From Occallatibacter sp. (GTDB lineage: Bacteria > Acidobacteriota > Terriglobia > Terriglobales > Acidobacteriaceae), in assembly GCA_031296165.1 (NCBI GenBank), contig JARLGF010000109.1, positions 1 to 35,919 on the forward strand: a stretch of DNA of 35,919 bases. The letters are read 5' to 3'. Shown here in pieces: positions 3,019-34,398 of this stretch. A model generated the notes under the pieces. That model was not told where the DNA came from. It ran no database searches and was given only the letters and a program-made list of their open reading frames with translations. A program made the translations under genes and the position numbers. The number at the start of each line of letters is the position of its first letter. Within the stretch, counting starts at the first letter, position 1.

Positions 3019-4728
3019 ATGATAAGGAAACGTATCCAAGCCGCGCTGCTCGCGCTGGCAGGAGCGATCTGCCTGTCTGCCCAGCCTGTGGCAGCGGCGA
3101 GCAAGCCTGCACTGCGTATCGACGCAGACGTAGTGGTTTACGGAGGAACGCCCGCGGGACTGGCGGCGGCAACCGCGATTGCTCGCGGACACCGTTCCGT
3201 TGTTGTCATTGAGCCGACCATGTCCATTGGCGGGATGATTACCGGCGGGATTGCATGCACCGACACGGGAACCCCGCAATTTGTGGGCGGAATTGCCAGG
3301 GAGTTCTTTGACGAAGTTGCATCGGTGGAGCGGCGCTCGGAATACCGTGAGCCGGCCAGCATACGGTTTCACGGCAGCAACCTTGCCTGGACGCAGCCGC
3401 GCGTGTGGGATCTGGAGCCGAAGATTGCGCGCCAGGTATTTGAAGCATGGATGCGCAAGGAAAAGATCGAAGTCATTTTGAAAAGACAGATTCTCTCTGT
3501 CTCGAAAACGGGGCCGCACATACGTTCCATTCTCCTGGCAAACGGTCTGGTTGTTTCGGGGCGGATCTTTATCGATGCCAGCTATGAAGGCGACTTGATG
3601 GCGAAGGCGCATGTGTCTTCGACCTTCGGACGGGAGAGCGGCCAGCAATACGGGGAGAGCCTGGCAGGCGTGCGTCCGCCGCATTTCGCGCGCGATTATA
3701 CTGAAGCGGAATTCGCCAGCCCAACTCAGGATTACATGCATCATGGACAGTTCAGCGCGAACCTGCCGGCGCGCGACCGGCAAGGCAGGCTGCTGTGGGG
3801 AGTCGAAGCGGGGCCGCTGGGAGCGCCGGGCTCCGGCGACGACCGGTTGCAGGCTTACTGCTACAGGCTGATTGCCACGTAGCGTGCGGACCTGAAAATG
3901 GCGTGGCCCAAGCCATTGCATTACGATGCTTCGCACTACGAGCTTTTGCTCGAGTACATCCAGGCCCATCCCGCCATGACCTTCACGCGGCTTGTGCATC
4001 TGGCGCCCTTGCCGAACGGCAAGTGGGACTTGAACGCAAGCGGTCCATTTTCCATCGACCTGATTGGGGGGAACAAGAAGTATCCTGCAGAGACCTATGC
4101 GGAGCGCGACCGGGCGTTGGCGTCGCACAAGGAGTATGAGCAGGGGTTCTTGTGGTTCTTGGCGCACGATCCGCGCGTGCCGCAGCCCTTGCGCGACGAG
4201 GCCGGCAGTTGGGGAATGGCAAAAGACGAGTGGCAGGACAGCGGGCATTGGCCGGCGCAGATTTATATAAGGGAAAGCCGCCGCATGATCGGCGCGTATG
4301 TGATGACGCAGAAAGACATTCTCGAGGACAAAACCAAGCCGGACTCGATCGGACTGGGATCGTTTGTGCTGGATTCACATTGGGTGCGCAGGTTTGAAGA
4401 CCAGGAGGGATTCGCGAAAGTGGAAGGGAACCTCGACGAGTCAATCGACTTGTCGAAGCATCCATATGAAATTCCCTACAGGGCCATTGTTCCCAAGCCT
4501 GGGGAGGCAGAGAACCTGCTGGTACCGGTATGTCTTTCCGCGAGCCATGTGGCTATGTGCACCATTCGCATGGAGCCCGTGTACATGATTCTCGGCGAAG
4601 CAGCGGGACAAGCCGCGCTGCTGGCATTGCAAGCAAAAACTCCGGTACAGCAAATCGATACGCGTGCGCTCATGCAAGCGCTCACCGCGCATGGCGGCGT
4701 ATTGAGCGCGAATCGGCAGATTCGCTAG
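3019..4728 (+). pseudogene. Exported FAD-dependent oxidoreductase, split by in-frame TAG
   Basis: One continuous frame encodes an FAD-dependent oxidoreductase (FAD_oxidored family, often found with polysaccharide-degradation genes), but it is cut by a TAG at 3880-3882 (codon 288). No frame change occurs: the part before ends ..QAYCYRLIAT and the part after resumes RADLKMAWPKP, which together read like the conserved middle of the family. I chose ATG 3019 because a GAGGAG motif lies just upstream and a clear signal peptide follows. Near residue 40 is the dinucleotide-binding motif VVYGGTPAGLAAA, and the C terminus has the family-typical MEPVYMILGEAAGQAA. An ATG at 3898 could restart translation but has no obvious ribosome site. 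It is probably a recent nonsense mutation or a base-call error; suppression is possible but unsupported. Confidence 0.85.
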
Positions 4729-4838
4729 AACATTTTCGGAATACATCTAGACTTTTTGAGAGCCATAACAGGTGTCTTTTTCTTAAGGAAAAGACACTTA
4801 AGCGCATGGCTTCGATCTACACCCATTCCGAAAATGTT
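4729..4838. repeat. Nested palindromic element, copy 1
   Basis: A 110-bp element begins directly after the stop codon of the broken oxidoreductase gene. The outer inverted repeat is AACATTTTCGGAAT (4729-4742) with its perfect complement at 4825-4838. Inside is a perfect 9-bp hairpin, GTGTCTTTT (4772-4780) and AAAAGACAC (4789-4797), with loop TCTTAAGG. The architecture and length match the elements at 14880 and 34281, although the outer arm sequence here is largely different. The T-rich inner stem could also act as a terminator. Confidence 0.85.
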
Positions 4839-5106
4839 ATAGAACCCGCTCTGAACTTCGTGCGCGAGACAGCAGGCGAATCAGCAAGCAAAGAGACTGG
4901 GAAGGCCTAATATCACGCCGCAATTGTGGCATGAACCCTGCTCTTGCCGGTCACTGGATATTCATGGCAGTTTCCGCCATGACAGCCCAGATCTGGTCCT
5001 CTCCGCCGTTGTGCTTCTTATTGCTCAGACTCGGATCGTCCGCGCCGCTACAGTTGGAAACGTCGGAGCAGGCTGATAGCGGCCCCGGCGATGGTGAGGA
5101 GAATCC
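4839..5106. other. Intergenic region, no gene seen
   Basis: Together with the palindromic element before it, this forms a 378-bp stretch without a convincing gene. Short open frames here have no ribosome site and overlap the real downstream gene in another frame. The only clear signal is a strong Shine-Dalgarno, GAGGAG, 6 bp before the ATG at 5107. Confidence 0.5.
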
Positions 5107-7638: not shown

Positions 7639-7710
7639 GCAGTGCTCGTGCCGGACCCCGGCTTACTCTTTCCTCATTCCAGTTCTATTCATCCCGGAGG
7701 GGACACCGTC

Positions 7711-9369
7711 ATGTTTTGCTATCAGTGCGAACAAACCTCGCAAGGCCAGGGATGCCAGGTAATCGGCGTCTGCGGCAAGGACGAAAACACCGCAACGCTG
7801 CAGGACCTGCTCATCCACGCGCTCAAGGGCGTGAGCCAGTACGCGCATCGCGCCGGCCAGTTAGGCGCGTCCGATCCGGAGATCGACGCTTTTGTCATCG
7901 AGTCGATTTTTGCCACGCTCACCAACGTCAACTTCGATGAGGACCGCGTGGCCGAGCTGGTGTACGAGGCCGCCCAGGTCCGCGACAGGGCGCGGGCGCT
8001 CTACACCGCTGCCGCAGTCAATGCAGGTGTTGCAGCCCTGCCGCTCTCCGGTCCCGCCGCGTGGCAGCCTGCCGCCACGCGCGAAGCTCTGCTGGCACAG
8101 GGACGCGAGCAACTGATTCCCGCCTCGTATCTGACCGGCAACCTGGTCAACAACGACAACAAGGAGATCAAGAATCTTGAAGAGCTGGTGGTTTACGGTC
8201 TGAAGGGCGTTGCCGCGTATGCGTATCACGCAATGATGCTGGGCTCCAGCGCTCCGGCTGCGTACGCAACCGTCTATGAGATTCTTTCCGCTCTCACCGA
8301 GCCGCACACTGCCGAAGAACTGCTGGGACTGGCGCTCAAGGTGGGCGAACTCAATTACGCCGTCATTGAACAGCTCGACCACGCACACACTGAGACCTTC
8401 GGCGCGCCCACTCCGGCTGCCGTGCGCCTGCACCCGCTCAAGGGCAAGGCCATTCTGGTTTCTGGCCACGACCTGCACGACCTGTATCAACTGCTGCTGC
8501 AGACCGATGGCCTGGGCATCAACATCTACACCCATGGCGAGATGCTGCCCGCGCACGGCTATCCCAAGCTCAAGGCCTTCAAGCATCTTGCCGGCAACTA
8601 CGGCGGCGCATGGATTGACCAAGCTCAAGACTTCGACGCCTTCCCGGGCTCGATTCTGATGACGTCCAATTGCATTCAGCAGCCGAAGCCGAGTTACACC
8701 AAGCGCCTGTTTACCGCGGGCGCTGTCGCCTGGCCCGGCGTGGAGCACATTGCCGGCACGGACTTTGCTCCGGTGATTGCGGCAGCGCTGGCCGCGCCCG
8801 GATTTGCCGAGGACGGCCCGGCCGACTCCATCACCACCGGCTTTGGGCACAACGCCGTTCTCAGTGTGGCAGGCACCGTCATCGATGCCGTCAAGACTGG
8901 CGCGCTGCGGCGCTTCTTCCTCATCGGCGGATGCGACGGCGCGCGCTCCGGCCGCAGCTACTATACCGAGCTGGCCGAACAGGTTCCGCAGGATTGCATC
9001 ATCCTTACCCTGGCCTGCGGCAAGTACCGCTTCAACAAGCAGGACTTTGGCACGCTGGGCGGCCTGCCCCGCCTGCTGGACCTGGGCCAGTGCAACGACG
9101 CGTACTCCGCGTTGAAGATTGCGCAGGCGCTGGCCGCGGCCTTCGAGTGCGGCGTCAACGATCTGCCGCTCTCGCTGGTGCTGAGTTGGTACGAGCAGAA
9201 GGCGGTGGCCATTCTGCTCACCTTGCTGTGGATGGGAGTGCGCAACATCCGCATCGGACCCACGCTGCCCGCGTTTCTATCGCCCGCGGTGCTGAAGCTG
9301 CTCAACGAAAACTACAACCTGATGCCCATCACCACGCCGGAGGCCGATCTGGCGGCCATGCTCGGCTAG
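7711..9369 (+). CDS. hcp: Hybrid cluster protein (hydroxylamine reductase / NO reductase)
   Basis: This 552-residue protein is a hybrid cluster protein, which reduces NO or hydroxylamine in the cytoplasm under nitrosative stress. The N terminus MFCYQCEQT has C3, C6, C15 and C21, spaced C-x2-C-x8-C-x5-C, the pattern of class I enzymes carrying a [4Fe-4S] cluster (the E. coli class II spacing is different). Hybrid-cluster ligands are visible in order: His in SGHDLHDL, Glu in THGEMLPAHG, Cys in TSNCIQQP, Cys in IGGCDGARSGRSYY, Cys in LACGKYRFNKQDFG, and Glu in SWYEQKA. The ATG at 7711 follows a GGAGGGG ribosome site. No hcr reductase gene follows, so the electron donor is encoded elsewhere. It ends at a strong terminator. 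Confidence 0.97.
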   Translation: MFCYQCEQTSQGQGCQVIGVCGKDENTATLQDLLIHALKGVSQYAHRAGQLGASDPEIDAFVIESIFATLTNVNFDEDRVAELVYEAAQVRDRARALYTAAAVNAGVAALPLSGPAAWQPAATREALLAQGREQLIPASYLTGNLVNNDNKEIKNLEELVVYGLKGVAAYAYHAMMLGSSAPAAYATVYEILSALTEPHTAEELLGLALKVGELNYAVIEQLDHAHTETFGAPTPAAVRLHPLKGKAILVSGHDLHDLYQLLLQTDGLGINIYTHGEMLPAHGYPKLKAFKHLAGNYGGAWIDQAQDFDAFPGSILMTSNCIQQPKPSYTKRLFTAGAVAWPGVEHIAGTDFAPVIAAALAAPGFAEDGPADSITTGFGHNAVLSVAGTVIDAVKTGALRRFFLIGGCDGARSGRSYYTELAEQVPQDCIILTLACGKYRFNKQDFGTLGGLPRLLDLGQCNDAYSALKIAQALAAAFECGVNDLPLSLVLSWYEQKAVAILLTLLWMGVRNIRIGPTLPAFLSPAVLKLLNENYNLMPITTPEADLAAMLG

Positions 9370-9394: not shown

Positions 9395-9433
9395 AAACAG
9401 GCGAGTTAGTCATTCAGACTAACTCGCCTGTTT
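9395..9433 (+). terminator. Rho-independent terminator after hcp
   Basis: A perfect 17-bp stem, AAACAGGCGAGTTAGTC (9395-9411) and its complement (9417-9433), encloses the 5-nt loop ATTCA. The right arm ends in TTT, and the hairpin lies 26 bp after the hcp stop codon. The A-rich left and T-rich right ends are typical of an intrinsic terminator. Confidence 0.9.
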
Positions 9434-14871: not shown

Positions 14872-14879
14872 GGCAGTAG

Positions 14880-14989
14880 AGCAGTTCTCCAGTTTCTGTA
14901 GCATGACCAGCCTGGTAGAAGGTGGCTTTTTCTTAAGGAAAAAGCCACTACACGGCATGGTTTCACCCTAATGCAACTGGAGAACTGCT
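14880..14989. repeat. Nested palindromic element, copy 2
   Basis: This 110-bp element occupies most of the divergent DUF2157/trmD upstream region. Its outer arms are AGCAGTTCTCCAGTT (14880-14894) and the perfect complement at 14975-14989. The inner hairpin is GTGGCTTTTT (14922-14931) and AAAAAGCCAC (14939-14948) with loop CTTAAGG. Its left end lies 9 bp from the DUF2157 start codon, so it must be transcribed in, or overlap, that gene's leader. Confidence 0.9.
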
Positions 14990-15057
14990 ATTGGCTGACA
15001 TTAAAGCACATCCCGCGGCGCCTCATACGGAAACCTGTGCCGTTATCATCAGTGTGT

Positions 15058-19317: not shown

Positions 19318-19503
19318 CAGTGGTCAGTGAACAGTGGTCAGTGGACAGTTAGTTGTCTGTTGTTAGTAGACAGTGGTCAGTGGTCAGTCAATAGCAGTCT
19401 GTCAACAAACCTCAGCGAGCAATTCTTTCTAATTGCAAAACCGCAGTTCCTGCCGGCAATCAAAACTGACCACTGTCCACTGTCCACTGTTCACTGACCA
19501 CTG
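19318..19503. repeat. Inverted repeat filling the msrP-msrQ gap
   Basis: Twenty-base arms at 19318-19337 and 19484-19503 are perfect reverse complements, built from short overlapping units such as CAGTGGTCAGTG and CAGTGGACAGT. Further degenerate units occur between 19337 and 19390 and at 19466-19483. The right arm ends at the base next to the msrP stop codon, and the left arm begins 4 bp before the msrQ start on the minus strand. It could form a long hairpin in the shared transcript. Confidence 0.85.
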
Positions 19504-33688: not shown

Positions 33689-34282
33689 ATGCTCGTCTCC
33701 ATGCTGCATTCACTCGTTTTCAGCCACATGTTTCAAATGCCGCTTCCCATCCTGGAGAAGCTGGCTCGCCCGGTCATCGTTTACCTGGTGCTGGTGGTTC
33801 TGCTGCGCATCTTCGGCAAGCGCGAACTGGCGCAGCTCAACCCCTTTGACCTGGTGGTGCTGCTCTCGCTCTCAAACACCGTGCAGAACGCCATCATCGG
33901 CGACGACAACTCGGTCACCGGAGGCATCATCGGAGCCTTCGGCCTGCTGGCCATCAACTGGCTGGTAGTCCGTGTGCTTTTCCGCTCCAGGAAGCTCACC
34001 CGCGTTTTGGAAGGCAGAACCACCATCCTGGTCCGCAATGGCCAGATCGATGAGCGCGCCCTGAGCCGCGAGTCGCTCACCCGCGAGGAACTGCTCGACG
34101 TCATTCATCGCCAGGGCTTTGAGGACTTCCGCCAGGTGCACCGCTGCGAACTGGAGCCCAACGGCACGTTCTACGTGGAGGCATTCGACCCCTCCGCCGC
34201 CGACAGGCATCACGCAGAACTGCTGGCCCGGCTCGATGCCTTGACACGCGAAGTGGCTGCCTTGCGGGCAGAGCCCATATAG
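33689..34282 (+). CDS. YetF/DUF421-family membrane protein
   Basis: This 197-residue protein matches the YetF (DUF421) family: three N-terminal hydrophobic helices with the signature LRIFGKRELAQLNPFDLVVLLSLSNTVQNAIIGDD, then a cytoplasmic or peripheral YetF domain containing TTILVRNGQIDERALSRESLTREELLDVIHRQGFEDF. The family is widespread but lacks an agreed biochemical function. The start is 7 bp after the POTRA gene stop, suggesting co-transcription. A palindromic element begins inside its stop codon. Confidence 0.92.
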   Translation: MLVSMLHSLVFSHMFQMPLPILEKLARPVIVYLVLVVLLRIFGKRELAQLNPFDLVVLLSLSNTVQNAIIGDDNSVTGGIIGAFGLLAINWLVVRVLFRSRKLTRVLEGRTTILVRNGQIDERALSRESLTREELLDVIHRQGFEDFRQVHRCELEPNGTFYVEAFDPSAADRHHAELLARLDALTREVAALRAEPI

Positions 34283-34391
34283 CGGTTCTCCAGTTGCTCC
34301 CGGGGGAAGCGGTTGCTGCTCAGTGGCCTTTTCCTCAAGAAAAGGCCACCTTCTACGTGGCCGGTTACGCTACGTAAACTGGAGAACCGCT
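34281..34391. repeat. Nested palindromic element, copy 3
   Basis: Outer arms AGCGGTTCTCCAGTT (34281-34295) and AACTGGAGAACCGCT (34377-34391) are perfect complements. The inner hairpin is GTGGCCTTTT (34323-34332) and AAAAGGCCAC (34340-34349) with loop CCTCAAG. The first two bases overlap the TAG of the YetF-like gene, and the element ends 7 bp before the end of the convergent vapC-type gene. It could serve as a two-way terminator. Confidence 0.9.
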
Positions 34392-34398
34392 CCAAATG

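Follow-up and report, generated by a model that had tools for sequence, protein, structure and literature searches.

Mobile palindromes that are defined by their fold include the double-hairpin elements of mitochondria. The Rickettsia palindromic elements are likewise described as mobile palindromes defined by their fold, and the excerpted source (PMC2229807) notes them for their insertion in genes. According to excerpts of two reports (PMC2229807, PMC10969869), the Correia/NEMIS, ERIC and RUP elements are mostly intergenic, non-coding sequences of 100–200 bp with terminal inverted repeats, TA ends and a long stem-loop; NEMIS occurs in forms of ~107 and ~155 bp, and RUP shares a TA target with IS630-Spn1 (PMC2229807). 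The repeats of the REP/REPIN-RAYT systems, and those of TIRYT and Class 3 Y1 genes reported from Acidobacteria, are dispersed palindromes as well (parts of PMC3733652; PMC6006769). We describe here a family from the Acidobacteriaceae that is probably one of non-autonomous transposable elements (MITEs) of the Correia/ERIC/RUP kind and that has the TA target of RUP. Compared by description with those parts of the literature, it differs from Correia/NEMIS, ERIC and RUP in belonging to another phylum, in displaying many outer-arm sequences per genome with pairing kept, in its conserved inner hairpin loop and in that no insertion sequence partner with matching ends was found. It avoids gene interiors and duplicates TA, contrary to what the excerpts relate of the Rickettsia elements, whose hosts also differ; relative to the REP/RAYT and TIRYT repeats as they are presented there, it is longer, duplicates TA and does not flank Y1 genes in 19 loci.

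The window, the whole stretch of 35,919 nucleotides analyzed here, is contig 40 of an Occallatibacter genome assembly of 2.78 Mb (161 contigs, 65.5% complete). An earlier note had reported three nested palindromes in it, at 4729–4838, 14880–14989 and 34281–34391, and their sequences are as claimed. The arms of the outer inverted repeats are perfect and measure 14 bp in copy 1 (4729–4742 and 4825–4838, inverted repeat I6), 15 bp in copy 2 (14880–14894 and 14975–14989, I7) and 15 bp in copy 3 (34281–34295 and 34377–34391, I16). The inner hairpins have the announced GTG...CAC stems and loops containing CTTAAG, CTTAAG and CTCAAG, respectively; they lie at 4772–4797 (I21), 14922–14948 (10-bp stem, 7-nt loop) and 34323–34349 (GTGGCCTTTT/AAAAGGCCAC). 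A covariance model delimits the full-length elements at 4726–4841 (minus strand, 92.7 bits, from TA to TA), 14877–14992 (minus strand, 100.8 bits) and 34278–34394 (plus strand, 94.9 bits, the right-hand TA now reading CA), the strand being assigned from the CCTYAAG loop; these are slightly longer than the palindromes because a TA or TA remnant stands at each end. No fourth copy in the window reached E 1 in this search. Folding z-scores of the three copies on the two strands range from −6.3 to −9.4, and in each case none of 200 shuffles was equally stable. With GC contents of 0.37, 0.46 and 0.56 against 0.59–0.64 in their surroundings, the elements are AT-richer than their host and not outright AT-rich. 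Copy 2 is located between a DUF2157 gene and trmD, five bases from the DUF2157 start codon, and copy 3 comes after a YetF-like ORF whose stop falls within the element. At 19318–19503, the window also carries CAGTGGTCAGTG-type repeats arrayed in either orientation, which result in long imperfect inverted repeats; at 9395–9433, directly after a long ORF (7642–9369), lies a terminator-like hairpin with 17 perfect bp and a loop of 5 nt.

An alignment of 45 non-redundant copies reveals common ends reading TA-N-AGC ... GCTC-TA, an outer stem of 16 pairs, a middle helix, a 10-bp inner stem and a CCTYAAG loop; as in MITEs, the length is below 200 bp and the ends are inverted repeats. The outer arms vary widely across sub-families (e.g. 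ATTTTCGGAAT, ATTTTCGATTC, GGTTCTCCAATT, AAAATCAGAGTT, GGAACCAGAGTA), and the stem changes had been proposed to compensate each other. This proposal holds in both sets of copies analyzed, where pairing is maintained by two-sided changes far beyond the shuffled and slid controls. In the outer stem of the 45 copies, 96.1% of cells are paired and 12 of the 16 pairs display two-sided changes, a single pair being AU, CG and GC in 15, 15 and 14 sequences; at positions 14–17, the letters are nearly free, yet 91–100% of sequences are paired there. The arms described as unpaired-looking are so only in part, since the middle helix (columns 25–29 with 95–99) pairs in 68.8% of cells and has two-sided changes in four of its five pairs. 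Over the whole structure, 22 of 34 pairs have such changes and 89.7% of cells are paired, against 76.9% after shuffling and 40–48% after sliding. The count of further pair types is not above that of shuffles (333 of 500 reached it with the 45 copies), because this measure preserves the column make-up. The 45-copy set goes back to at least 105 stretches retrieved with an exact pattern for the inner hairpin, so that the constancy of its inner stem is partly built in. A second set of 21 copies was found by the model in four other genomes (G007, G139, G094 and G130). Its outer stem is 89.0% paired against 64.6% in shuffles, and 13 of 17 outer pairs show two-sided changes, a number reached by 22 of 500 shuffles. 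Inner stems do vary in this set (GTGGATTTTT, GGGGCATTTT, GTGGCCTTTT, GTGGCGTTTT, GCCGTTTTT, GTCGTTTTC); the stem is short in two to four of the most divergent copies, and in L184 the longest computed stem is not the inner hairpin.

The earlier note had also suggested the spread of a non-autonomous element and a comparison of orthologous positions, which yielded empty sites. Copy 2 is absent from all 12 relatives that can be aligned over the junction. In eight of these 12, exactly two bases, TT, stand between the joined flanks, from which it follows that the element added about 114 bp; as the end dinucleotides of copy 2 are TA and TT, duplication of TA is compatible with this site and not proved there. 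A clean empty site in two close MAGs with flanks 96–97% identical (L076, GTT-TA-CCGTGTCGCC; L068, ATT-TA-[155 bp]-TA-GCGCGTCGCC) shows, in this one case, that TA is duplicated on insertion. Both the duplication and the absence from orthologous sites speak for the proposed spread. Neighboring elements may abut over one shared TA (L073 4294, L102 1200), and 91 of 118 insertion sites conform to YTAR, compared with 754 of 7167 nearby background TAs. An empty site for copy 1 (4726) was sought in 14 genomes, in none of which the upstream gene is collinear. For L093, L003 and L116, alignment to relatives hints at absence, with too little clarity at base level to be used.

The palindromes are not due to chance. 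The inner-hairpin pattern has 50 plus-strand and 53 minus-strand matches in the genome, most of them counted on both strands because the pattern is near-palindromic, against 5 and 5 for a reversed control; an outer-arm pattern found 82 sites in a related genome and a control pattern none. A covariance model search of the genome and its relatives, as advised in that note, brought further copies to light: in the genome itself, 115 matches over both strands correspond to 77 distinct places, the element measuring ~116 bp. Within a phylum sample of 149 genomes scored with strict filters, the element occurs in five of the 15 that belong to the same family, this one included, and in none of the 134 outside it. 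Fourteen genomes chosen within the genus were searched at E 1e-6: 11 yielded between 1 and 127 matches with both strands counted, whereas three near-complete ones (G153, G156, G157) yielded none; the family is thus patchy and its amplification differs by lineage. Dispersal and a copy number that varies among relatives are again as in MITEs. Core-pattern matches comprise at least 105 stretches, and among the matches listed, 78 of 80 are labelled Acidobacteria, Acidobacteriales, Acidobacteriaceae, Granulicella or Terracidiphilus, the other two belonging to one MAG labelled Rhodoferax. The elements in contigs of that MAG (L063 and L110, JARLJI01 records) may represent mis-binned Acidobacteria contigs or a transfer. 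Together with 59 genomes of the genus, the core-pattern matches point to Acidobacteriaceae as the host family; in viral contigs, this pattern had no match.

Of the elements, 11 of 117 lie within predicted genes, as opposed to 1419 of 1956 random positions, and a cruder classification of restored sites places 25 of 118 in coding sequence. Restored sites fall exactly at a stop codon in 24 of 118 cases. Considering non-coding sites only, stop codons account for 24 of 93, compared with 59 of 435 in the non-coding YTAR background (odds ratio 2.2; one-sided p 0.004, without correction and from related, hence not independent, sites). Counted more loosely, 44 of 278 element ends terminate an open frame of 100 codons or more by their own first three bases; joining the flanks would give an immediate stop in 34 of these 44. 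Genes were called for all these counts with a simple method based on ORFs and GC position. Copy 1 closes its upstream FAD oxidoreductase-like ORF (3898–4728, Pfam PF12831) in this stop-rebuilding manner: the TAG at 4726–4728 on the plus strand is formed by the end of the element, and in the site minus the element (locus L001) TAG would be read at once. Since the ends read TA-G or TA-A, an insertion into the TA of a TAG or TAA codon would rebuild the stop; the end of the element can thus restore the stop codon at its insertion site, and stop codons would therefore constitute a harmless landing place.

Near absence from genes and many copies directly after stop codons would also be expected of a structured RNA or mRNA element, such as a processing site, a stabilizer or a terminator, kept by the host at each site for gene regulation, and the strong fold on both strands and the covariation agree with it. 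We nevertheless consider such an element improbable: copies are absent at orthologous sites in relatives and TA is duplicated, the stems are nearly self-complementary on both strands, no T-run lies downstream of the hairpin in the three window copies, and Rfam at gathering score had no match in the window. Recent changes bear on the same question. Between close copies, differences affect 68 of 2660 outer-stem positions (2.6%) and 352 of 5015 arm positions (7.0%), in clusters limited to copies whose ends score as paired. This lower stem rate favors an RNA element and points away from simple decay, but the filter for paired ends weakens both arguments. Among the 57 outer-pair changes, 11 are two-sided, with pairing retained throughout; the other 46 are one-sided and disrupt the pair in 31 cases. 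The one-sided majority tells against an RNA element maintained at each site and fits a scheme that it suggests, in which settled copies decay after insertion and the fold is kept only in lineages still moving. The selection on a folded RNA or cruciform that the note had evoked has support in that pairing is kept by two-sided changes, and is not implied for every copy. Four pairs of orthologous copies differ at 6, 2, 4 and 1 positions, too few to decide on selection on single copies; L071 and L281 have three outer-stem differences, all one-sided.

Three elements (L013, L136 and L140) are chimeric, with left and right halves of different outer-arm sub-families and an outer stem that no longer pairs in full. 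Template-switch correction is known for imperfect palindromes, and two-sided changes could arise without selection if one arm were copied from the other; the chimeric copies do attest exchange within the element. This explanation appears unlikely to us, given that position 3 of the two ends is still different in most copies, that arms and a one-base bulge remain imperfect next to the supposedly corrected stretch, and that recent changes in close copies are mostly one-sided.

No autonomous element with matching ends was found in the sequences and transposase families searched (Y1, IS630 and PF13586), which counts against the MITE interpretation. Facing ends 200–4000 bp apart were sought in 151 sequences (873 kb), and six pairs emerged. 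Those of L064, L149 and L135 (2474–2781 and 2758–3268) were rejected as ends of two separate elements or neighbors, for L135 from the coordinates alone. At L005 (780–1567), the partner of a lone end is an ordinary element, and most of the interval is taken up by a 283-aa ORF. The pair of L096 (4102–4374) was discarded as a single element split by an unrelated ~0.27-kb repeat, which has the ends GGGCCTGTT...AACAGGCCC and lies at a CTAG-like site. Whole-genome end patterns, covering two outer-arm types only, gave in G007 (best 81 of 82 sites considered) 25 facing pairs under 6 kb, of which 23 are 113–120 bp apart and two join separate elements; in G152, nine pairs measure 116 bp and one, that of L096, 385 bp, and in G158, 13 measure 115–116 bp and one 155 bp. 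G174, G161 and G198 were read by eye. IS630 also prefers CTAG. However, no matching end pair flanks the IS630 gene (PF13358) in eight loci from eight genomes, and IS630 genes are present in four of eight element-bearing genomes and missing from the other four, two of them 99% complete; an IS630-derived MITE, by analogy with RUP and IS630-Spn1, was rejected on these grounds. PF13586 transposases occur in five of ten element-bearing genomes, not all, and none of the eight loci has matching flanks.

The Y1 (HUH) transposases deserve separate consideration. A REP/REPIN-type repeat moved by a RAYT or TIRYT enzyme acting on folded single-stranded DNA would be expected to have hairpins changing in step, Y1 genes occur in all eight genomes examined, and in Acidobacteria, unusual repeats flanking TIRYTs and hairpins of an atypical kind flanking Class 3 Y1 genes have been reported (PMC3733652; PMC6006769). 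Of 19 Y1 loci, none has the element on both sides; one holds it beside the gene and not around it, and in several the gene is flanked by other repeats. Moreover, TA is duplicated at the empty site, and we know of no TA duplication by Y1 enzymes. We therefore judge this origin very improbable.

A further hairpin of ~40 bp (CCGGGGTCCCC...GGCGACAGGTCTTCGTCGC...TGGGGTGG) replaces the inner loop in copies of 152–168 bp belonging to several outer-arm sub-families (L307–L309, L311–L320, L135 3633–3787 and L068 773–931). The REP-like hairpin (GGGGTCCCC...GACAGGTCTTCGTC...GGGGTGG) is also found solitary in L065, L081, L125, L218 and L304, in L218 apparently within the loop of another palindrome, and thus looks like an independent REP-type repeat entering hairpin loops. 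Variation beside it in the long copies (AAGTAAAAG, AAGAAAAAG, AAGGAAAAG) hints at more than one entry. In L252 (G152), one copy at about 1828–1846 comes directly after a Y1 transposase match, whose gene may be its partner. A repeat that targets loops would be of interest by itself.

Returning to the MITE interpretation, a DDE-type transposase that works in trans is favored by the inverted ends, the duplication of TA and the preference for YTAR. This candidate enzyme would recognize the ends of the short non-coding element, AGC followed by a loose R-N-W-W-Y-Y pattern, and would insert it into TA, including that of TAG or TAA stop codons, the TA-G or TA-A end then restoring the stop. The fold would be needed, or at least favored, in moving copies, so that the three stems (outer, middle and inner) evolve together even as single copies decay. 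That the fold may be needed for movement is suggested by positions 14–17, free in sequence and still paired. Its conservation under sequence change is unusual and the reason for it is conjecture. The many arm sequences per genome count against a MITE served by one transposase with a fixed binding site, which does not predict them. As a more speculative variant, to which we give rather little credence, the fold itself would be the recognized unit: the element, which duplicates TA, would move in folded form, as a cruciform or a single strand, with only AGC ends, fold and CTYAAG loop fixed and stem letters free.

TA-ended palindromic MITEs are already known; what we regard as new is that these elements have preserved their pairing, and not their sequence, across a bacterial family, and we found no description of it in Acidobacteria in the open-licence literature. 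Targeting TA, scarce within genes, with an end that rebuilds stop codons would be a strategy suited to a gene-dense, GC-rich genome. Conserved sequence is the usual criterion by which small mobile palindromes are defined; here, pairing is kept over whole genera as stem letters turn over. The covariance model would allow annotation of the element in Acidobacteria genomes, and the family provides natural material for the question of whether a transposase can read shape and not sequence. If this were true, it would constitute a structure-read transposon whose shape is kept across a bacterial family and whose ends are tuned for harmless landing at stop codons.
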